A DNA stretch of 64,000 nucleotides from Branchiostoma floridae (taxonomy: Eukaryota > Chordata > Leptocardii > Amphioxiformes > Branchiostomatidae): positions 15,650,915 through 15,714,914 of the forward strand of contig NC_049980.1 in the NCBI RefSeq assembly GCF_000003815.2, in the 5' to 3' direction. Within the stretch, counting starts at the first letter, position 1; each line of letters starts with the position of its first letter. The translations under genes were made by a program, and so were the position numbers. The notes under the pieces are model-generated. The model saw only the letters and a list, made by a program, of their open reading frames with translations. It was not told where the DNA came from and did not search any database. Of this stretch, positions 25,545 through 56,503 are shown one piece after another.

Positions 25545-25577
25545 CTGGGTTGCCATAATATTATTATGGCAACCCAG
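25545..25577. repeat. 33-bp hairpin with RFX half-sites
   Basis: Two 15-bp perfect arms, CTGGGTTGCCATAAT and its complement, are separated by ATT. Each arm carries GTTGCCAT, an X-box half-site. Unlike the palindromes at 31993, 39725 and 42322, it has no 7-bp flanking duplication. Confidence 0.7.
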
Positions 25578-31800: not shown

Positions 31801-34800
31801 CATGCGATTGGTAGATATGTTGTGGGACTCATCTTTGACCTGGTGGGCAGCATTCTTTGGGGTGGAATTTGGCTACTACTGGAGCCATAGACTGCACCAT
31901 GGTAAGCGTCATGCATACTCGTAGGTAGAAACAGGTAAAGGTGGTCCCATCGCATTTTTGAGGCCTTAGGGGCAGTGGGTTGTTAACCACAACAAGGAGG
32001 TAAAAATTTTAACCTCCTTGACCACAATATCTAGAGCACATAAAATGAACACCAGCAAGGCTACCATTCGTGTATGTCTGCATGATGACACGGATAAAGA
32101 ATCTAATTGAATTGTCATTCCTATTTATTTCTGATTTAACACTACATATCATTATTCAATTACTGCATACTTGTGCGGATCTTATCAGAAGAATGGCAAA
32201 AGTTCAGTAGAGCGAATGTGTTGCCTTTTGCTGTTTATTCCTCTTTGATTGTGATCTGTTTACTTTAGAGGTGAACATACTATGGGCCGCACATCAGGTC
32301 CATCACAGCTCCGATGATTACAACATTCTGTCATCACTACGGACATCAGCATTCCAACGCTGTACCTCTTTTGTAAGTAATGTTGAAACAACAAGCAAAG
32401 CATCAGAATCGCAACATTGGTAAAAACAGCCTCGGTGGTGGAGGTACTATCAGCACCACGGACAGGGGCCGACAGCTAGCAAAGCCAGTGTATGAAGAAA
32501 GCTTTAAACCTCACGTATAGGATATAATTTCAGTTCTAATGGCGTTAACAACGATTGAATTTATCATTGACATTGTAGATATGCGATTTTTAGCGTTAGT
32601 GGTACACAACACTTCAAGAGATGCACTAGTCTCAAGTTCTAGGTTTATTCCAGGAAAAGGATATTGCTGTTTTTCAATGTGTCCTGAAGGAAAACGCCGT
32701 ACACTCTCTATGTTTCCACAGCTCCTGTACTTACCCCTGGCCTTAGCAGTGCCCCCTGCTGCTTTTCTGGTTCATTACCAATTGAATCTTCTATATCAGG
32801 CTTGGCTACACACAGAGGTTAGTGGTGAAATTATATATAACATAAACGGTTTATAACATAAACATCATTGCTGATGTGACTCATGAGCATTCAATACACT
32901 CCCACCATTGGCTGGAATTACAGTAGTTCACAGAATGCTTACTCCAGTGGTTAGCGACCCTGCCTCTGGACGAAGAGGATAGGAGTTCAAATTGCATACT
33001 ACTAGAAAGGGCTAAGGTCCCCAGGACAGGACATCTTATTCTCCAAGCAGAGGTTGGGTCGCGGGGATGGTAATGGCCGGGAGCACAGAGAGCTGGTAAA
33101 ATTCTCCGGCACTAGTATACCCGCGATCCAACCTCTGCCTAGATTTCAAAATTTCCTAGTATAATGTACCCGTAGATAATGAACATATCGCCTGTCTTCT
33201 CTGTCTCAACCAGTGGAAGACCCGCTTGTCCAAATTTGCTTTCGCTCTGGCGCTCTGGTGTTCTTTTGTAAAATGCAGTAGTTAGTTTTTAGTCTTACCT
33301 TCGATGATGCTCATGTGTTGACAGCTGCCCTGAACAGTGCTTCCATCCCTTGTGCAGGTGGTTGGTTCCCTGGGTCCCCTGGAGTACATCCTGAACACAC
33401 CGACTCACCACAGGGTTCACCACGGTAAGCTCAGATACAATTATTTCCAATTAGTGGTGCGTACCTAAAGCCCTGACTTGGTCCGGAGCCAAGTCCGGAC
33501 TTGCAAAAAGCAATCTGTCACTTATATTCCCTTTTTTTGTTCTAAACCGTCTGAAACCTTCCATAGACATATTTCCATAGAAATTTGAACTGGGAAAAGA
33601 CAAACAAAAAACAGTTCGTGTTTACACTGGCTGTCTATCATTTTCATGTATTTTTCACATTGCATTTCAATTCATGCTAACATGCAATTTTATATGCACC
33701 CCCTACCCCCCCCCCCCCCCACCCCCCACCCCCCCAAAAAAATGCTCATAATATGACTTTACGTCCGGACCTGAACCTGAACTGCTGGACCTGAATCCGG
33801 ACCTGAAATTGAGTTTAGGTACTCACCACTATTTCCAATTGTGAAGTTGTTGTGTTTGGATATCACTTATGTATTAAAATGAAACGTTACCTGTGATTGT
33901 ACATCTGCTTGGTATTTTTGATAATCTTTTGCGCTATTTCCGTACACAAAGTGAAGACCAGAAAGATAAGAGAGGACTGATCAAGAGCCTGTTGGTAAGC
34001 TCTTTGGTAAACGTTGTGTATAGAATTAGCATATTAAGTATTCACAATTTCATTTCTATTGTCATGGCTTAGAAGCACACTTGAAAACCAATGCACGCAG
34101 TACGAGGGTTAGTGCGAGGGTTAGTATGTTCACAAAGTATTATTATCACTATCTGTTCTATGATGGTTAAACTAACGTGCCCCCTCCTGATTACACCTGA
34201 CTGTCCCAACAGGCAGGAATCAGATGGGAAAGAACTTTGGCGGAACACTCATCATTTGGGATCGAATATTTGGTGAGAAAACTTTGGCATTTTATTTTTC
34301 TGCGAGCCTTGTGAATCAGGGGTGGTATTTTGCGAATAGTGTAATCCATTCTATCTGTTTGAAACTAGGATGGGTCACTCATGAGGTGGTGGGAGGGTGT
34401 CACATGACGAATTCAGGTTGCTATTATTTACCAGTGTCCCTTCAATTGCATCATCAATACTTCCAAATTGTAAAGCTGGGAGTTCAAAGTTTGAGCAGAT
34501 GTAAAATGTTACAACTGTGTGATGATGAAACTCCCAAAACGCTTTTCCTACACGCTCTCTGTCAGAAAGTAGTCTGGATGCCACGTGGGCCTGTTGCCCT
34601 ACATACAAGCCTCTGCATTCAAATCTAAACAACATTATAAAACTCGCAAGGGCTTTATAATGAGTTGCATTATTTACCACAGGCACTTTTCACCAGCAGA
34701 GTGGACCACTGATGTATGGTTTAAGAACTGCTGTCAACACGTGGGACCCAGTCTGGATACAGGTGAAGATACAGATAGTAAGATTCCTTGATGTGAATGA

Positions 34801-36963: not shown

Positions 36964-37398
36964 CAACCTTATAAGATGAAGTCACCATGTCATGTGTTGG
37001 AAAGTCCTACTACACCCTACTAGTCTCACATCTCTGAAATCAGCAGATAGTAATACTGTGTGTTCAGATTACGGTTCTGAAAAAAATAGGTCGGTTGGTA
37101 GTATAGCTATGGATGATGTTTTTTTTTTCTTTATGATTTCAGCCAGTTTAGCAATGTGAAAATAAATGCACCAGAGTGCTAGTATTTTCAACATCGTATT
37201 TTGATAGCATTTGACATCACAGCAAAACTGGACTGGTGAGAGATGTTGGAAAACGTCACTCTACGAGGCTCTCAGATCGAAACTCCTTGTCAGAGGTCGA
37301 CCCCCCAAACGGCAGCAGGTTTTTGCCATGGTCAGTCGGGTGACCAGAAACCGACATTTTTCTAGGCCTGATCGTCCTCACCGTGCAGCACCAAGAAT

Positions 37399-37597
37399 TG
37401 CTCTCCAAGCAGAGGTTAGGCTCCGGCTGTTTTTTGACGTTTTTCTTAGTCGTTTTTACCGGGCTTTCTATTTTGTATTGAATCTTGTATGTTATGTTTT
37501 GACAATATAAGATACAATACAAAATGCAAAGCCCGATAAAAACGACTAAAGAAAACGTTAAAAAAACAGTTGGAACCTAACCTCTGCTTGGAGAGTA
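37399..37597. mobile_element. 199-bp MITE with perfect 9-bp target duplication
   Basis: TGCTCTCCAAGCAGAGGTTA and the complementary right end enclose AGTCGTTTTTACCGGGCTTT arms. ACCAAGAAT is duplicated exactly at 37390-37398 and 37598-37606. Confidence 0.9.
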
Positions 37598-38250
37598 ACC
37601 AAGAATAGCTGACATCGGTATCGGCTCCATTTACGTAACATGAAATAAAGTTGACATTACTACCGGGCCTACTGTTAAGCTGCTAGCTCATTTACAACCT
37701 TACATAACTCACCTAGTCGACCTTCCTGCTGGTTTGGTACTTTCAATGGCATATTTTTACGTGTTCAATCGTATAGAAAGGTAATACCCTTTGGAACCCT
37801 GTGGAAACCACTTTGCGTGCTGAGCTCATCTGAACATGACGGTAAAGTGATTCAATTCATGGCGACACCAGTAGCCAAAATACCGAACTAGTAATACTAG
37901 GTCTAAAATCGGACACGTCAATCTGTCCATCCTGTGTATATATTACGTCACATACAAAAATATTATAACACTCCAACAATATATTGAGATACTTTAATGT
38001 GTTTGTTGGGTTTGTCTACAGCAATACTAGGATGCATAGACAGAATTAGTGAGAAAGTTGCAATAACGAATAAAACAAGAAATTTAAAAAAAAATCTCAA
38101 ATATGCCACAGAGTCATGAGATCGTTGGTTTCTTGTTGCATTTTTAAAAATCTTTCTTGCTGTTTTTCTTTGAGGAGAAAGGCCCGGGCTGTGTGTCTGG
38201 AACATTACCCACTACGGTTCGATCCGTCTTCCTGTCGTCTACTATATTAA

Positions 38251-38732: not shown

Positions 38733-39724
38733 TTAACGTCATCCACCCTTCGCAGCATTACCGGGCAACTGTCTGACCACGCGAGCTTGAACGAGTATCC
38801 CACATCTGTGCCTCTTTCTATCAGACTCGCTGAGCGACTGCACAACAATCAAATTGAAGTTGTATCTAAAAGGAACGAAGCGCACAAAACGTATTAAGTT
38901 AGTTTTTGTAAATCTTAATCTACGAAACCCGTTGTGCGATCTACCAAACCTTTTCCGCAGCGCCGCGGCCCCAGCCTCTGGAGAAGTTGGGTTGATTATG
39001 TAACTACGCTGGAAGCTGGCTACCATACATATAAGGCACACAACACGTTATGTAAGTAAGTACAGGAAATCGATGATTTCCCACTGGTCTCTCCAAGATC
39101 CAAGATCATAGTCGTGCAGCGTGTGCAGGCCGCGTTCTCCCCGCGACAGAGCCGATCAATGGTTTGCATACTAGTACGTAAACGCAAGGGCATTTATTCA
39201 TTTCTGATTATATAATGTCCATTTTGTTTATCTCTGAGTTTTTTCGGCCGAGTGTTTTTTTCTGTCGAGTTGTGGCCCCGGTTTCTTTCACTCACATCTC
39301 CAGAGCAATCTGAATTCAGTGTCCAAGTCTCAGCGCCATACAAGAATATCAACAAGACGGGAGATCAAAAGGAGAATTTTGGTCGCCATATCATTGTTAC
39401 AACAGATGTGTTTGAGTTTCGAGGTCGACAATGCAAGAGTAGACTTTGCACTGCTTCCAAAAAAAGAAGTCAAACCCAACCTGTTAGAAATAGCCAACAC
39501 TAGTATTAGAGTAGAATATTGTTCATGACTGTCCATTGTCACTATGTATATACCGTGTAGATTTGTACAGTCTGACTGCACACACAGACACACACACAAA
39601 CACACCGACCCTCGTGAAAACATAACCCACATGAAATGGATAAAAACAGAGGCACCTGACTTCAGGATGTTTTTAATTCCTCTCGAAAGTACGTTCGCTG
39701 GACACATGTAATGCTACGTGCGTG

Positions 39725-39756
39725 CAAGGACGTTACATCAGGATGTAACGTCCTTG
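39725..39756. mobile_element. 32-bp palindromic micro-insertion with 7-bp duplication
   Basis: Arms CAAGGACGTTACATC and GATGTAACGTCCTTG are perfect complements with a 2-bp spacer. GTGCGTG is duplicated exactly at 39718-39724 and 39757-39763. Confidence 0.8.
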
Positions 39757-39791
39757 GTGCGTGTGAGGAATGTTGCAACAGATATTGTGAT

Positions 39792-40112
39792 GGGTGTTCG
39801 GAATTACCGGTCCGGGCCGGACCGCGGAATTACCGGTCCGGTCTGTTTAGGGGGCGGAAAAACCGGTCCGGTCTGTTCTGCGTTTATCTACGCCCCCTGG
39901 CAGGAAATAGCAGAATTGCAATTGGTATGCTGTGTTCCCGTATATCACAACATGAAGCGCATTGATTGGATGCATGGGGTCCGCATGCTAATGTCACTGT
40001 TTACGTCAGATCGATCGGCGACGGTTAACATAAACATTGCACTGGTGGAAAGTTTGCCATGCCCGATACGCTGAACGGAACCTACTGCCAACAACACTCA
40101 AAGCAGTAAAAC
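39792..40112 (+). repeat. ~320-bp GGTCCGG-rich repeat, left inverted copy
   Basis: It begins GGGTGTTCGGAATTACCGG, continues through repeated ACCGGTCCGG blocks, ACGTCAGATCGATCGGCGAC and CTACTGCCAACAACACTCA. It is the inverted partner of 43943-44264. Confidence 0.8.
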
Positions 40113-43100
40113 CGACACTAGCTTGAGACAAATAATAGGTCGACAATGATCAGAGTATGATCAGAGTGAGATTTTCTTGTTGGGCCGGCTTTCATTTCAT
40201 ATATGGAATCGTGAAAATAGGATCGTGATCAAAGAACTGAAGTCTGGGAAATCTTCAGACACTTGCAATCGCAATCGTCATTTTGCATTTCATCATGCAA
40301 AAATTCAATATACCTATCAAGAAAAGCCAGCTTGACAAACCATATCACATTCTCTATATAAATGACAGATTTTACCGTGATCGATATTGATTGTTGTCTT
40401 ACACTTGTCGCTAAAGACGAATATTTTTGTTTTGAAGACAACAATCCCATGTAATCACCTGCAAAAGCTCGCACGCCGATCGGAAAGACGCCCGTGTAGT
40501 TTTCAGAGCCGAAACCGTGAGTCGTGGGTTACCCTAATATATTCGAATTAAACCAAGGCAAAGTGCCAAATAGTCATCTTAATTTGTATGTTGGAAATAG
40601 ATTTGACAGGAATTGACCAAAGGTGGGCTTTCAATGTTTCGGCAGTCTCGTGTCGGCCAGCTGAACGCGTGGGAAAAAGTTGAAACAAGAGTGACAGTCC
40701 GGGGGTGCCTGGCGTCTTACACGGAGCGCCGCGAGTCTGTGACTGTCGCAGACTCGTGCTGATTTCGTTACACATCGAGTGCGTAGAATTAGATAATGAT
40801 AATAATACCACAGAGAACCTAAAATACAGTGGTTTGTTCTTTGGAGCTCTTGGCTTGATTCATTTCCAAAAGTAAACAACACTTGTATTTTAATTCAAAT
40901 CCCACAGACCGACAATGCCACAGCCTGGCTGTTACTATGGTTGTGATTGTGATTGGCAGTCGTGCGGCTTCCTCTGTAATGATATCCCTAACCTACTTAG
41001 CATATCGGTACCCTTTGATCAGGTCGACAGAAGTCCACAAACTGCCGAACGATAGCTTTTCAGGATCGTGTAGAACTTCCTACATTACGTTAGAAATCGG
41101 AGACAATTTCTAATATTCCCATTACAAATGTCTCACTGAGTATAACCTTTTTTTCTTTGCAAGTGGAAATATAAGGTTTGCCTGAGTTGGTTATTTACCA
41201 TATACATGTACAAGGTGAAATTGTAGAACCATATTATGCCCGGTCATAACTTTCTATAGATCATTTCCGGTCATTTCTATAGATAAGCTGATGCTCATTT
41301 GTTAGGAATTGATTGATATCATAGCTACTTTTCTAGAGGCGGACTTTTCGGATATTTTTTTCTTCTTAGAAAGCCGGAATATATTTAATATACATTGTGT
41401 AATACAATATACAATTTACAATATACATTGTATAATGTAACCATATGCCCGGATATACTATGTATTTCTAGATAAGCTGATGGTCCTTGTTTAATTAGTT
41501 ATTGATATCACAACTACTTTACTAGACGATAACTATGTTTTCATCCGACGACTTTGCTTGAAATAATGCTGCTGGTCGTCGAGGGTGCCGAGGGGCCCAA
41601 CAAGACCTACCTGTTCCTGACGGAGCTTCCTGACGGAACATCGCTGACTGCCGCTCCTGATCGTCGCACCGACGAAATCAATACAAGGCATTCTTTCAAC
41701 TTTATGTGCTTTAATGTATTTGTTGATCGTATATGTCTGTTCAATGTTGTGTTGTTTGGCGTAACTAATTAACCGTATCTGTTGAAACTTGTGAAGTCGC
41801 AACTAATATTACACTTACTTCTATGTATATACTACATACACTACATACAAAATGTACTATTATTAGGTAGCTACATTTCTAAGTCAGAATAAAGGGATTC
41901 GGGGTTCCATCCGTTGCACACTGCTGATCGTCGGGGGTGCAGCTCCACCAAGAAGCCCTAGCCTCTACCAGGCTTCGCGGATCGGTGGTTTAATTGTAGA
42001 AAATGGACAAATAGAGTCAATGGTACGCTAGGGGAGTCAGCCGGCTAGAGGAGTTGTTTTCCTCGCCGACGGCCTGGAGTACATTCAACCTTGCAGCGAT
42101 CCTAGATTCTGATGTCCTGGTTTAACAACTGACACTAACATGAGGCAATAACTGTCATGAGCTCTTGATTTCAAAATCTTGATATAAAAAAATAGCATTA
42201 TAGAAGTCCATCGTCCATATATTAAAAAAATTGCATTTCCGATTCATACTGCAAGAAATGTCGAGAGGGGGTTGTATGAATGAGCCCCAAAACAAAAGAA
42301 CATATAATCTTCTGCTTGTACCAAGGACGTTACATCAGATGTAACGTCCTTGCTTGTACAAAAATATCGCTGTTAACAGTGGTGACGATGTACCCCCATT
42401 TTAAACCTTGTTTATTGATTCTATAATCTACAACTACAGTGTAGCTGCTGAAAATTATAGGTGAGAAACTGTTCCAGCTCCTTTAATTTGGAGAATACAC
42501 ATGTACACATCATAAAACGTTTAAAACCTGGAAGGTAAGTTCATACGAGAGCTTTCCATCATCATTGTGCAGCTACCAGATCGACCATCATCTATTCCAA
42601 ATGTGGAAATACGGTAGGTACATCGCTAAATGTAAGATGAACTTCCATGCCTTTGTCATCTTAAGTCGCGGTGGCACCATATATCAGTATAAATCACAAC
42701 TGAATCTGTCTAACAATTTGTGCACGCCTGTTGAACTTTACGATGTGGGTTTACGATACATGCTATTCCAAAATACCTAAAATATATTAATCGGTACTAA
42801 ATATCGCTATGAAATAAAGTAAACCAAGAAACATAATCAAACACTGTGGAAAAACAAGCCCCGTGCTGATAGTTGTATATAGCACAGGCCCATTCTTTGA
42901 AAACATGCCGTCAAACCAATGCGATTAACCTCCTTGGTCAAACTCAAAGAAGCCGCGCCCCGCCCGCATATGTGTCAATCAAATTGAGCGGCGCGGCAAG
43001 AGGGCCCGGGTCAGACCCATTTTTGCTACAATGCTACCGGTATCTGAACATCTATTAAACACATTCACCCGCAGAAAACATCTATTGGTTTCTATTTCAA

Positions 43101-43942
43101 TAATGTAGGTCCCATACATCCGCTCAAAACCACAAAGTTTGACAACATTCCTCACTTTCTGAACCCCACACAAAACCACGCCGACTGCGTGTGTCATACC
43201 AAGGAGAAAAGTGCCTTTAAACTCTATAGTGTATATAACATCTTTGGTCATATCTAATAGAAAGCGAGTAAGTAGTAGCTCTAAAATACATAGTTGCACC
43301 ATTCCAGATATGTATTTGCTGTGCACAGATATTCCTATCAAAATTCAAAGGTGGCTTTCAAACTGCGCACTGGTGCATGTTCCCGATCTTGATCACGCCC
43401 GGCGGCAATATCAAAGTTGCCGGTGACTTGTGTTGTCCGGTTATGTTTGGTTTTCTGGGAACATGTACAGGCGCTTTATATTGACGTTGCAATGGTTGCA
43501 TTTATCTCAGCATTGTTTGAATACACATATTTTTGAATGAAGAATTATTTCAAAGAAAATATGGTTATGAGAATTGTTCTTTCGTGTTAGGAAAATAGCA
43601 AAAGTTTAAGATCGGCTAGCCATTTTACTTAAACACAGTCTAATTACGTTGCATACGCGGTAGAACCCCGCCCTTCCGACCAGACGCTGTTAAATTTCTG
43701 CCGTAAATCAGGCTGTTTGATTAATAATAATGCTCATGAATATTCCGTGTACACGGTATTCAATGAATATTCTGAATACAACCGACCGGTGAGGTGAGGT
43801 GAGGTGAGAATCGACCGCTCTTCACGTGATACCGTCCCGTAAATACGGCCGTATTACGATCGGATTTACGGCGTGTACACGATTATGCTAATCGTAATCG
43901 CCCCATCGTAATCTACGATAACGTTAGTGTTCAAAAGTGACT
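40113..43942. other. Gene-poor interval between the inverted 320-bp repeats
   Basis: AT-rich with short frames only. It contains a diverged direct repeat (TTTCTATAGATAAGCTGATG near 41275 and TTTCTAGATAAGCTGATGG near 41465) and the palindromic insertion at 42322. A frame near 41554-41772 (TYLFLTELPDGTSLTAAPD) looks protein-like but lacks splice sites or a recognised family. Confidence 0.4.
42322..42352. mobile_element. 31-bp palindromic micro-insertion with 7-bp duplication
   Basis: The arms are identical to those at 39725-39756 with a 1-bp spacer. CTTGTAC is duplicated exactly at 42315-42321 and 42353-42359. A different target sequence with the same element argues for mobility. Confidence 0.8.
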
Positions 43943-44264
43943 GTTTTACTACAGTGAGTGTTGTTGGCAGTAGGTTCCGTTCAGTGCTTCGGTCATGGCA
44001 AACTTTCCACCAGTGCAATGTATATGTTAACCGTCGCCGATCGATCTGACGTAAACAGTGACATTAGCATGCAGACCCCCATACATCCAATCAGTGCGCT
44101 CCATGTTGTGATATACAGGAACACACCATACAACATGCAATTCTGTTCAATTCTGCCAGGGGGCGTAGCTACACGCAGAACAGGTCGGACCGGTTTTTCC
44201 GCCCCCAAACCAGACCGGACCGGTAATTCCGCGGTCCGGACCGGACCGGTAATTCCGAACACCC
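43943..44264 (-). repeat. ~320-bp GGTCCGG-rich repeat, right inverted copy
   Basis: Reverse-complement of 39792-40112 with scattered differences. Outer end CCGGTAATTCCGAACACCC, inner end GAGTGTTGTTGGCAGTAG. The pair brackets 3.8 kb without a recognisable gene. Confidence 0.8.
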
Positions 44265-44530
44265 GTTTGACTGATTTATGTTACAATTTTTAAGACCATA
44301 TATCCGAAATAAAGCGCTTTAATACCAACAAGCTTTCGATCAGTCCTCTGATCCTTCTCAAGTTGAAATGACCCAGAGCCTTTGATCATGTATGATCTTG
44401 AGGTCAACAAGCCCGCACGCGACTTCATCATGTGTCCGACAATCTGTGTCAAAGGTCAACATACGCTCTTACGTTCGAGCGTACGACGGCCTGTGTGATG
44501 TGTGTAATAGTGCAAGGAGGTTTATAAAAC

Positions 44531-44749
44531 TACTCTCCAAGCAGAGGTTAGGCTCTGGCTGTTTTTTAAAACGTTTTTTTAGTCGTTTTTATCGGGCTAT
44601 CTATTTTGTAATTTTTCTTGAAGTATGCCAGCCAAACTTGAGTCAAACTTCAGTTAGGTTTTGACACAGCAAGATAAAATACAAAATAGAAAGCCCGATG
44701 AAAACGACTAAAAAAACAGAGCCAGAGCCTAACCTCTGCTTGGAGAGTA
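44531..44749. mobile_element. 219-bp MITE of the TACTCTCCAAGCAGAGG family
   Basis: The ends TACTCTCCAAGCAGAGGTTA and TAACCTCTGCTTGGAGAGTA are perfect inverted repeats, with the same AGTCGTTTTTATCGGGCT arms inside. No intact 9-bp duplication flanks it, so one flank has changed or the copy is rearranged. Confidence 0.85.
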
Positions 44750-45410
44750 GTTAAAGCTTCAACGGTAAGTGCAAGTAACGTTACGTACTAAACGTTAGCA
44801 TCTTCCAGTAGATGTGTTGTCACGCAACAGTCGGTTTCCTGGCCACAAGGAAAAGATGGATGACGATGTGATATCTTGATGAAGCTAGAGGGACGTAAAA
44901 CGGAGGTCCCGTGCTCGAGGAGGTGCCTCGACCACGTTAATCAGCCCCATTACTCATAATTTGGGTAACGTTACCTTAGTACTGGCTGGCAAAATACACC
45001 TGGTGATTACGATTATTATTATAACCACTCGCGTATACTGTGTCCAGCGAGTGTGTCAAAGGTCAACGAACGTTCGAGCGTAAAAACAGCCTCGAGTCAT
45101 GTGTCTGTTTCACTGAAGGCGAGCTCAATAAAAACATATCGCCCTGACTGATGACAGATTCTGATCATAATATTTGCTGAACGGACTACAAAACTCACAC
45201 ATGGCATATGTACTGTATAGAGCTCCCACATGCGTATTATGTCAGGGATTGCCTTCATATCATAGTAGTATAAAATGTTCAGAATCAGATATCTTAAAAA
45301 TCTCATTGATATTTAACACTAGTAGACAGTACAACATGAGGACTATTGGTATATCCTATTTTTATATTTCAGCCATACATAGTATGGTGAAATATATTGT
45401 ATTCGTAATG

Positions 45411-51000: not shown

Positions 51001-53552
51001 AGAGTAAGGGGTGTATTTTATTAAAGACTGAAAGAGAATAAGTCAAGAATGGATCAAAGGATCATCATGATTTTTGGTATGCTGATAGCTTAAGTAATAC
51101 TTGATACAATTTGATATCGATGAATGGTAACCTGGGATCTAATTTGCATAATCAATGTTGAAATTTTATAAACCAACTCCAAGCATATGATTATAAAGAA
51201 AATGAAATGAGTAACACATTTGTCTACAGACATCATTCTACATATTAACAAACCTTGTTATTTGGCAAAGGTATGTGTTCGTGGAACTCTAGTTGTTTAT
51301 CCCCTGTGGCTGTCGCCAAGTTAGAGTGATAAACGGTGTAAATAACGTTCTTGATGTTTGGGTGGCTAACAGCTTTTGACTAGCCTGCATTGATGAGGTT
51401 CTGTTGTATCTGACTTAACTTGTAGACAATGGCGACAAGAAGAAGCTTGAGGATGCTGATGAGATGGACCCCAATGTCATGGCATCTGCCTTCTTGGGAC
51501 CCAACTTATGGGATAATGTGGATGACTTCAAGGTAAGTTCAGTCTTTGATGTGTGTGTCTCAGTGGAGGGTTGACATGTATTTAATATCAATGAACAGTG
51601 GGACTGCAGCACGCTTGACTCAGGTCCAGAAGGTCCTCAGTTCGAACCCCGCCTGTCACCGATCTTGTGCCCTTAGGAAAGGCACTTAGTCCACAGCAAG
51701 TAAATTTTATGGATGACATCCACGCGCTCATTAATTTTCGCCTGATTTCAGAAAAAAGCAAGATTTTTTTTCTTCTTCAGGGAAGGCCGGATAGACGAAA
51801 ATGGGTAACGGTTGTGTTGTAACCTAATCATTGAATGTAGAATTGACACTGGAGACTCTGTAGCATTGACTGACATTGCAGAGGTGCAACTTGATAGATA
51901 GTTGTAAAAGTGGCACAACTATGAAGCTATGAGTGTAGTTGCCAACATGGTGAGTGATACCAGTCTACCACACTAGTGTCACTTTAACTACACTGGTGCA
52001 CTTCTTAAATACAGGAATGAATGCCTTGTTGGCTGTGATGCCAAATTTTGTCTCTTCAAGTCTTGTTACAACGTCTATTTTGAAAATTTGCCATCTTGTT
52101 TTTTTTTACCCATCTTGTTTTTTTTTTGCCCTATCTCATTATTTTTGCAGTCTGCAGAGGATGTCATCCATAAAATTTACTTGCTGTTGGTAGCCTCAAA
52201 ACGAAAGAAGAACTGATCTGATTCCTACAAGTACCTCAATGGAGGAAATTAAAAAGAGTAGCTCAAGATTTCCTTGCATTTTGAGCTTGTATACTGACCA
52301 TGTTGTCTGTCCTTTTCCAATCTATCAGAAAAGTGCCTTTTTCAACTTAAACGTTCAGCTGAGCATAATGCAGCATTTTCGAGCAGTAAATAACTTGCCA
52401 CAAAGAAACACAATAGAGTTGATATCACAAAGGTAGCACAAGTATATTGTAAAAGATGTGACGCTAAGGTCTCTTTTCATTCTCAGGACTTCAAGCTGGA
52501 GGCTATCGACCTGGATGACTTCTTCGCAGAAGCTGGGATCCTTGTTCCACAGGACGTCCCGGTGGGCGACCCCAGTACTGCAGGGTTACCGCAGATCCCT
52601 GACCCTAAATCTCCAGAACCTGCAGCTTCAACATCATTCTCCCCGTCTCCACTGGAGGCTACAACAAGTACATGTAAGTGTTGATCATTTTATTTTACAT
52701 TTCTGTTGGAGAGATTGTCAGAAAGCAAGTACTGCTTATTTAATGCCCTCTCCTCTTACAAACTTGGGACAGTAAAATAATTTCAGCGAAATCCACAAAT
52801 TAACTTGTCAAACTTTGATTCTGATCTGAACAAATAATAGATTTACCAGCTACAGGTACAGCTTAAGAAAGCAAATATCCCTGTACAAGAAGAGAACCAT
52901 GTCAAAAATGAAATAGTTGACAGCATTCTAGAATCTAGAGGGTTACTTTGCAACTCTTTTGTAATTTCTCAATTGATAAACTTGTTGTTATACTATATGT
53001 AGTTTGGAAGTCAAAGTTTTCATTTGTCTGTAAGTAAACTGTTTTAGAAGATGGTGATGGTTGTGAATTGTCAACAATCACATTATTATATTCCTATCTT
53101 CTGCAGCCATCAGCAGCCCCGAGCCAGTATTGTCTCCGGGTGTCTCCCCTCCCCACATCAGTATGGAGGAGGTGATTCCAGAGGTGGAGTACGACGTCTC
53201 GCCAACTGATGTGGCCCTTGCCTCCATCCCAGGAAAGGAAGAGTTCAATCCTCGCAAACGAGCCTTCAGTGAGGAGGAACTCAGGCCACAGCCCATGATC
53301 AAAAAGTCACGCAAGATATTTGTTCCTGAGGACTTGAAGGACGACAAGTACTGGGAGCGCCGCAAGAAGAACAACGTGGCGGCCAAGAGATCACGGGATG
53401 CAAGGCGGATCAAGGAGAACCAAGTGGCACTGCGAGCATCTTTCCTGGAGAAAGAGAATGCTACCTTGAAGGAGGAGTTGCTGAAGGCTAAGGAGGAAAA
53501 TGTGATCCTGTCCAAGAAACTTTTGAAGTATGAACAACAGAACAGAGTCTGA
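48020..53552 (+). CDS. TEF: PAR-domain bZIP transcription factor (TEF/HLF/DBP type), complete
   Basis: Four exons, 48020-48113, 51426-51532, 52487-52673 and 53107-53552, join in frame to 277 residues (human TEF is ~300). The N-terminal activation segment carries family landmarks [11 protein letters not shown] and [16 protein letters not shown] Pro/Ser-rich middle follows, then the PAR basic extension [20 protein letters not shown], the bZIP basic signature [12 protein letters not shown] (~218-229) and a leucine zipper with L243-L250-A257-L264 spacing, ending KYEQQNRV. Such proteins dimerise, bind D-boxes (RTTAYGTAAY) in the nucleus and act in circadian output and metabolic gene control in vertebrates. 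One pre-duplication gene could be equally related to TEF, HLF and DBP, so the symbol is a family label. Kozak context CAAAATGTC. Intron 1 (3.3 kb) is rich in repeats. Confidence 0.93.
48600..49200. repeat. Two copies of a CTCGAGA/CCTAGCGGC repeat in bZIP intron 1
   Basis: Both copies contain CATAACTCGAGA, GATATTTGGTGGGTGGGTAG (with small changes) and GGGCCCCCTAGCGGC, followed by GTACTGCAGC. Further copies lie at ~50340-50530 and, inverted, ~55680-55870. The antisense and sense frames here are repeat by-products. Confidence 0.75.
50340..50530 (+). repeat. Third copy of the CTCGAGA/CCTAGCGGC repeat
   Basis: Starts near TTTGCCAGAATGGCTAAGGT, as does the copy at 48605, and holds CATAACTCGAGAAACC, GATATTTGGTAGGTGGGTAG and CCCCCTAGCGGCTTGCTAAG. 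Confidence 0.75.
50560..51250 (+). repeat. Tandem array of about three ~245-bp AT-rich units
   Basis: Each unit starts near ATGTTGACGGATC(G/A)TCATG or its decayed form, continues CATAATGAGATAC, CAATTATGCA and AATTTGCATAATCAATTAGG, then GTCACATATGTA. It lies in bZIP intron 1. The third unit is the most diverged. Confidence 0.7.
51596..51690 (+). mobile_element. tRNA-derived SINE
   Basis: A near-perfect polymerase III B-box, AGTTCGAACCCCG, is followed by TTGTGCCCTTAGGAAAGGCA, the body seen in other SINE pieces of this window. It lies in intron 2 of the bZIP gene and abuts the MITE at 51694. Confidence 0.65.
51694..52186. mobile_element. 493-bp MITE with 28-bp terminal inverted repeats
   Basis: The ends begin CAGCAAGTAAATTTTATGGA and continue TGACATCC at both sides, exact over 28 bp. 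The inner ATGGATGACATCC is shared with the family at 746 and 57388, hinting at a common origin. No clear target duplication. It lies in bZIP intron 2. Confidence 0.75.
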
Positions 53553-56132: not shown

Positions 56133-56503
56133 GTAACAAACGTTACCACCACGAGGACGATGGTTGCCATGGTTATATCATCCACGCATAAGACTAGAAA
56201 TGACCGTTTTTGTGACGCTGTAGTTTTTCTGGCTTTCTAAAGGAACAATAAATGTTTGTCGACTCATTTATATCCCATCTTGCTTAACAAAATGTTGTAC
56301 AGAAATGACTGTAACAAACGTTACCATTGTTCGATGCTCTCTAAGCTTTCTACTTAACCTGGTGTAAAAAAGCTGCCCACTTTTCAAATGCCCCTAGGGA
56401 TGTCCACTTATACCTAAATGATGTCGTCAATAAGGTGCTTCCTTTCGAAGAAAACAGGGTAAAGTCTACTGTTGTAACAAACGTTACCGGTAACGTTTGT
56501 TAC
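56133..56503. repeat. Four GTAACAAACGTTACC motifs, two forming a perfect palindrome
   Basis: The 15-mer occurs at 56133-56147, 56311-56325 and 56474-56488, and inverted at 56489-56503. The last two make a 30-bp perfect palindrome. No 7-bp duplication flanks it. An RFX-like GGTTGCCATGGTTAT lies near 56160. Confidence 0.85.

Follow-up and report, generated by a model that had tools for sequence, protein, structure and literature searches.

The window analysed here is a 64,000-nucleotide stretch of contig NC_049980.1 from the lancelet Branchiostoma floridae, and it carries two perfect palindromes, each set between exact 7-bp direct repeats. We confirmed from the window sequence the palindromes, their repeats and their coordinates as reported in an initial annotation of this DNA. 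Each palindrome is very probably the footprint of a P-superfamily transposon that inserted with a 7-bp target-site duplication (TSD) and was later excised. The features of the two sites, none of which is assigned to a strand, are as follows.

39718..39724: left target copy of site 1, GTGCGTG (from the sequence and from genome-wide flanks)
39725..39756: 32-bp scar of site 1, CAAGGACGTTACATC-AG-GATGTAACGTCCTTG (15 bp, AG and 15 bp), end joined to end
39757..39763: right target copy of site 1, GTGCGTG (from the sequence and from genome-wide flanks)
42315..42321: left target copy of site 2, CTTGTAC (also from an empty site in seven related copies)
42322..42352: 31-bp scar of site 2, CAAGGACGTTACATC-A-GATGTAACGTCCTTG, the commonest form among 42 palindromes in the genome
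42353..42359: right target copy of site 2, CTTGTAC (from the sequence and from genome-wide flanks)

No hairpin with arms longer than 12 bp (spacer of at most 8) was found in 20 windows simulated with a first-order Markov model, thus the 15-bp arms observed here are not due to chance. When we scanned for inverted ends abutting a 7-bp direct repeat, the window had three matches and 400 simulated windows had none. For repeats of 6, 8 and 9 bp, the 400 simulations yielded 16, 3 and 0 matches, respectively, and the window no match at all. The repeat at site 2 can also be read as 8 bp (GCTTGTAC) when the terminal G is assigned to the flank, which is not the case for site 1.

We searched the genome from which the window was taken (513,431,437 bases in 431 contigs) for the 15-nt end followed by at most eight central bases and the inverted end. 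This pattern occurred at 42 places and its reversed control at none; the exact pattern also had no match in collections of viral contigs and of genome contigs. Tabulation of the flanks of all 42 palindromes gave an exact 7-bp repeat at 35, an exact 8-bp repeat at two and a 7-bp repeat with one mismatch at two, while the remaining three (L025, L026 and L028) had no flanking repeat even when one mismatch was allowed. Eleven different centres were present, namely A (18 palindromes), AGCT and AACT (5 each), AG and AAC (3 each), AGAT and AACGTT (2 each), and AT, AACGT, ACTCT and ACCT (1 each). Four of the 18 palindromes of the 31-bp form with centre A/T (L008, L018, L037 and L041) are copies of site 2. 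Among all 42 palindromes, the maximum length is 36 bp, or twice 18. A tandem duplicate of scar plus target copy, as from slippage or unequal exchange, was seen at L001:1501-1573, and two scars 75 bp apart at L025:126-234 are flanked by 7-mers that do not match and give the impression of an exchange or inversion, as from recombination between neighbours.

Target sites showed a symmetric preference, T..GT...AC..A, with T at position 2 in 28 and A at position 6 in 26 of 35 sites, a count that includes the copies of site 2. Scored against GTANTAC, the target consensus of the P-superfamily element Galileo, the target sites matched at a mean of 3.23 of 6 positions and flanking 7-mers at 1.60 of 6, a difference reached in none of 20,000 resamples.

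Site 2 lies inside a larger transposon, to which likewise no strand is assigned.

39792..44264: host transposon of site 2, 4.47 kb, with inverted ends of about 328 bp (from its long inverted arms and its copies)

The inverted ends of this host (GGGTGTTCGG...) include CCGGTCCGG repeats, and its open reading frames (ORFs) of at least 90 aa gave no match to a Pfam transposase. A copy on C18 is 98.8% identical over 4,473 aligned columns and has the same scar, as do partial copies on C6 and C212. The site 2 scar has therefore been copied along with its host, and the initial view that the two palindromes do not stem from a duplicated segment fails for site 2 in this respect. With a 701-bp probe around site 2 we found at least nine further copies at 81–84% identity among the 40 of 716 candidates that were scored. 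All seven that were read had a single ATTGTAA and no insert, and thus represent a related empty site. ATTGTAA differs from CTTGTAC by two substitutions, and the alignment gap spans 39 columns rather than the 38 expected, hence there is a one-base length difference beside site 2. The 7-bp repeats are genuine target duplications, as the initial annotation had supposed. An 18-nt scar of a single end with target AAAGAAC is present in three copies (L081, L096 and L099, on C4, C6 and C7), which probably also sit inside this host transposon, since each has one of its listed copies at a distance of about 1 kb.

At least two full elements with the scar ends are present in the genome, L047 of 1573 bp (TSD ATATCTG) and L049 of 1570 bp (TSD GAACTAC), which are 96% identical to each other. 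A 17-nt end, CAAGGACGTTACATCAG, had been deduced beforehand from 34-bp scars, and the full elements then showed it at both tips, the next base being A at one tip and G at the opposite one; their inverted repeats are about 27 bp long. A longer element with the same ends, for which the initial annotation had suggested looking, does therefore exist. Eight ORFs of the L047 stretch had no Pfam family at an E-value of 1. L047 encodes nothing recognisable and is a non-autonomous element. A third far pair of ends, at L048, turned out to be two separate scars. For 14 unpaired ends, 7 kb of sequence contained no distant partner end with a target copy. About 100 bases per side were read for the remaining unpaired ends, so that longer elements with other interiors may hide among them.

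The 15-nt end by itself occurs at 244 places in the genome (118 and 126 by strand). We compiled a census of 91 sites with this exact end from the first 100 listed of these places and the 42 palindromes, dropping known copies of site 2, copies of the L081 site and full elements. Both target copies were present at 65 of the 91 sites (7 bp at 63 and 8 bp at two; exact at 59, one mismatch at six), and the scars between them were 19 to 48 bp long. Two ends of at most 18 nt plus at most two inserted bases fit 55 of the 65, a figure that is descriptive because the end references were picked after the scars had been seen. Decomposition of the 65 sites gave a spectrum like that of break repair, with 1–3 nt of microhomology at 35, blunt joins at 16 and inserted bases at 14. 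Asymmetric joins, such as 15+CTTG and 15+AACGTCCTTG, recurred at separate sites that each had their own target copies, a 19-bp form five times and a 25-bp form seven times. Some entries need qualification: L050 was parsed as 28 bp, although it measures 42 bp by its exact target copies. L069 and L079, which have the same target copy and the same scar, probably represent a single site, and L095 (48 bp) is a complex case.

This variety bears on the proposal that the palindromes are true transposons of 31–32 bp, made of two inverted ends only and moved by the transposase of larger relatives. Exact palindromes do occur at many places, most with their own 7-bp duplication, and identical forms recur (the 31-bp form with centre A/T 18 times, four of them one copied site, and a 42-bp form twice). 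However, the length of target-flanked copies varies between 19 and 48 bp, some of these copies are asymmetric joins rather than inverted-repeat elements, and their spectrum resembles that of end-joined P breaks. Transposition of P also requires internal transposase-binding sites. Such sites are present in Drosophila P (PMC7776569), and a palindrome of 31 bp is too short to hold them. We therefore regard a miniature transposon as very improbable and discarded, on the same lengths and asymmetric joins, a tiny miniature inverted-repeat transposable element (MITE) of shared length that moves as a unit. The notion of an element that is almost nothing but two terminal repeats gives way to copies that vary as end-joined excision breaks do, with a limit near 18 nt per end.

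That limit was apparent when retained ends were compared with the 27-nt reference from the full elements: at none of 93 non-full sites were 20 nt or more of the end kept. A second end type (...CATCAAC) was compared with a 19-nt reference only in this test. Scars retained at most 17–18 nt of the end, save for chance extension to 19. Eight census sites (L061, L063, L067, L073, L077, L083, L089 and L098) keep ...CATCAG before running into unrelated sequence; the next base was A or G at all eight, as in the full elements, and position 19 matched at three, in a hand count made after the data had been seen and from which L071 was excluded because its next bases are part of its target copy. A tail of 17 nt was our first assumption, and the fuller census points to 18. 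The same limit speaks against internal deletion by interrupted gap repair, which would leave both terminal repeats without any staggered cut. Inefficient gap repair often yields defective P-type copies (PMC4168063), but varied internal breakpoints would be expected of it, and with none of the 93 sites keeping 20 nt of the 27-nt end we consider this origin very improbable.

Excision scars of a P-superfamily transposon would arise as follows. Insertion of the element would make the 7-bp target duplication. On excision, the transposase would cut the two strands at different points, one at the tip of the element and one about 18 nt further in. The broken chromosome would thereby keep about 18 nt of each end, presumably as 3′ tails as in Drosophila; we infer the position of the inner cut from the retention limit. 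The tails could then be joined end to end, either blunt, via 1–3 nt of microhomology or sometimes with inserted bases, and since the two tails are alike the product would be a palindrome, at most about 36 bp long, with a target copy on either side. Sites 1 and 2 would be two such products. The P-type transposase of this genome presumably made the cuts, and host end joining the recurrent scar forms.

The P-type transposase domain PF21787 was found at three places in this genome and had no match in 14 control genomes. The two loci that were read, L107 and L108, each encode PF21787 and PF21789, the N and C parts of the RNase H domain, in separate frames. L107 matches the outermost 81 bp of the 1573-bp element at 77% identity (E 4e-11), with the match ending exactly at the tip, and the transposase frame follows this homologous end after about 1.4 kb. 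L108 has a match that likewise stops exactly at the tip (E 1e-4), and a further 199 bp there match the element (E 1e-12), the homologous end being about 1.1 kb from the first frame. Control loci of at least 2 kb gave no match to the element with an E-value below 0.006. Because the element tip matches at loci with a P-type transposase, the P superfamily is the most likely assignment for the palindrome ends. A THAP domain was not matched in the five L107 and L108 frames scanned. Instead, the transposase frame at L107:1792-4095 (G000, C19) has an N-terminal stretch that matched the Pfam family RAG1_imp_bd (E 7e-8), and so does a separate, overlapping frame just before the transposase at L108:5448-6209 (G000, C11; E 7e-10). 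A RAG1-like N-terminal zinc-finger domain has been described in Chapaev and a Transib transposon (PMC4411706).

These loci also weigh on a hAT origin, in which the palindromes would be footprints or deletion derivatives of a hAT element. hAT target sites likewise show T at position 2 and A at position 6, as does the target motif here, and the hAT end consensus YARNG is fitted by CAAGG. Families of hAT with a 7-bp TSD serve as a search example in the Repbase Update paper. Against this, the loci matched by the ends and by the subterminal sequence encode a P-type transposase. Excision of hAT elements is not known to leave 17–18 nt of each end. No hAT domain was found in 76 window ORFs or in the five L107 and L108 frames, the whole genome not having been searched for hAT. 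We consider a hAT origin extremely improbable.

Several observations weigh against excision by a P-superfamily transposase as the source of the palindromes. Twenty-six of the 91 census sites were unmatched by the junction scan; a looser scan found a target copy at four or more of them (the second L001 copy, L071, L081 and L091), at the last three directly behind a single retained end, and the 22 left over may represent truncated elements, deletions in the flanks or the tips of longer elements with other interiors. That longer elements may account for some of the unpaired ends lowers our confidence very slightly. L050 and L051, separate sites with different duplications, share one 42-bp palindrome in which the six extra bases are also identical; independent repair would not readily produce this. 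There is a small chance that a few scars, such as this one, were themselves re-mobilised by the transposase, in which case they would be the shortest known cut-and-paste transposons. The second end type was deduced from scars, and no full element with it was seen. The opposite end was not found at either L107 or L108, leaving one end per transposase locus. A phmmer search of the L107 protein against solved structures returned no P transposase, including that of Drosophila P, and the link to P transposase therefore rests on the Pfam profiles. Finally, Drosophila P makes an 8-bp duplication as opposed to the 7 bp found here, a length shared with Galileo.

A probable third scar in the window came from the scan for inverted ends abutting 7-bp repeats, again with no strand assigned.

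31986..32027: probable scar left by a sibling family, ACCACAA + CAAGGAGGTAAAAATTTTAACCTCCTTG + ACCACAA

Its palindrome, at 31993-32020, is related yet different in sequence and also starts with CAAGGA, and it is probably the scar of a sibling family (CAAGGAGGTTAAAA...). CAAGGAGGTT sequences occur near the P-type transposase gene of L108. Two further perfect palindromes in the window, at 25545-25577 (arms 16 bp, spacer 1) and 56474-56503 (arms 15 bp, spacer 0), are not bordered by direct repeats. A 15-mer of the latter palindrome, GTAACAAACGTTACC, is present again at 56311, and both this palindrome and one at 1730-1749 contain GTTACC..GGTAAC, which we take to resemble the RFX X-box. We also noted two copies of a hairpin-like MITE of roughly 200 bp with ends CTCTCCAAGCAGAGGTTAGGCTC at 37396-37598 and 44528-44752. 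An exon of a bZIP transcription factor lies at 53067-53552 (Pfam bZIP_2, E 1e-14; PAR-type by eye), and a Pfam search of the 76 window ORFs of at least 90 aa returned two bZIP families on one ORF, one weak unrelated match and nothing else.

What appeared to be an impossible 31-bp transposon thus becomes a readable record, comprising dozens of natural scars of one family in one genome. Without any experiment, these scars show where the cut probably lies, which targets are preferred and how the host tends to repair breaks. It is also a caution that short palindromes with target duplications can pass for tiny MITEs. The 15-mer end string was not found in open literature text, and in the open literature, excluding subscription papers and Repbase, there was no recognised report of the family or of natural lancelet scars.

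The initial annotation had named P and Dada as candidate superfamilies, of which P is favoured by the transposase loci beside homologous ends. Dada shares duplications of 6–7 bp, but Dada-U6 has no terminal inverted repeats and Dada strictly targets small-RNA genes (PMC3706591), so that the perfect inverted ends here disfavour it. Pdre2/THAP9 of zebrafish likewise represents the P superfamily in a chordate, with ends that begin with CA; in contrast to the family described here its duplication is 8 bp and its 13-bp inverted repeats differ in sequence (PMC10983969). The five L107 and L108 frames had no THAP match. Galileo, a P-superfamily element of Drosophila, has 7-bp duplications of consensus GTANTAC, three copies having 8 bp (PMC4168063, PMC3573991). 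Its palindromic GTA.TAC preference is comparable to the GT...AC preferred here, whereas its inverted repeats of about 300 bp to 1.2 kb far exceed the 27 bp or so of our elements.

A close likeness is that to the junctions of Drosophila P, whose transposase makes a staggered cut, with one strand severed at the tip and its partner 17 nt further in (PMC7776569). End joining of such breaks gives a target copy, an end, a reversed end and a target copy, often with a palindrome of 30 or 32 bp (PMC2895639). By our tabulation of Table 1 of Chan et al. 2010, both target copies were kept in 63 of 66 end-joined isolates; 24 of the 66 had arms of at least 13 bp and a spacer of at most 4, including 14 isolates with a perfect 30-bp palindrome and 5 with one of 32 bp, and in another common class (15 of 66) only 7 bp were left (PMC2895639). 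Both systems thus show palindromes between two target copies and blunt, microhomology and insertion classes, with the 30- and 32-bp palindromes being among the commonest in Drosophila. They differ in that the Drosophila junctions derive from 17-nt tails at laboratory breaks and those described here from tails of about 18 nt in a natural genomic record. The lancelet family is new, its kind of scar is already known from Drosophila experiments and its repair record is unusually rich. The scars suggest that the 17-nt staggered cut, known from biochemical work on Drosophila P, is common to a distant animal lineage, at about 18 nt.

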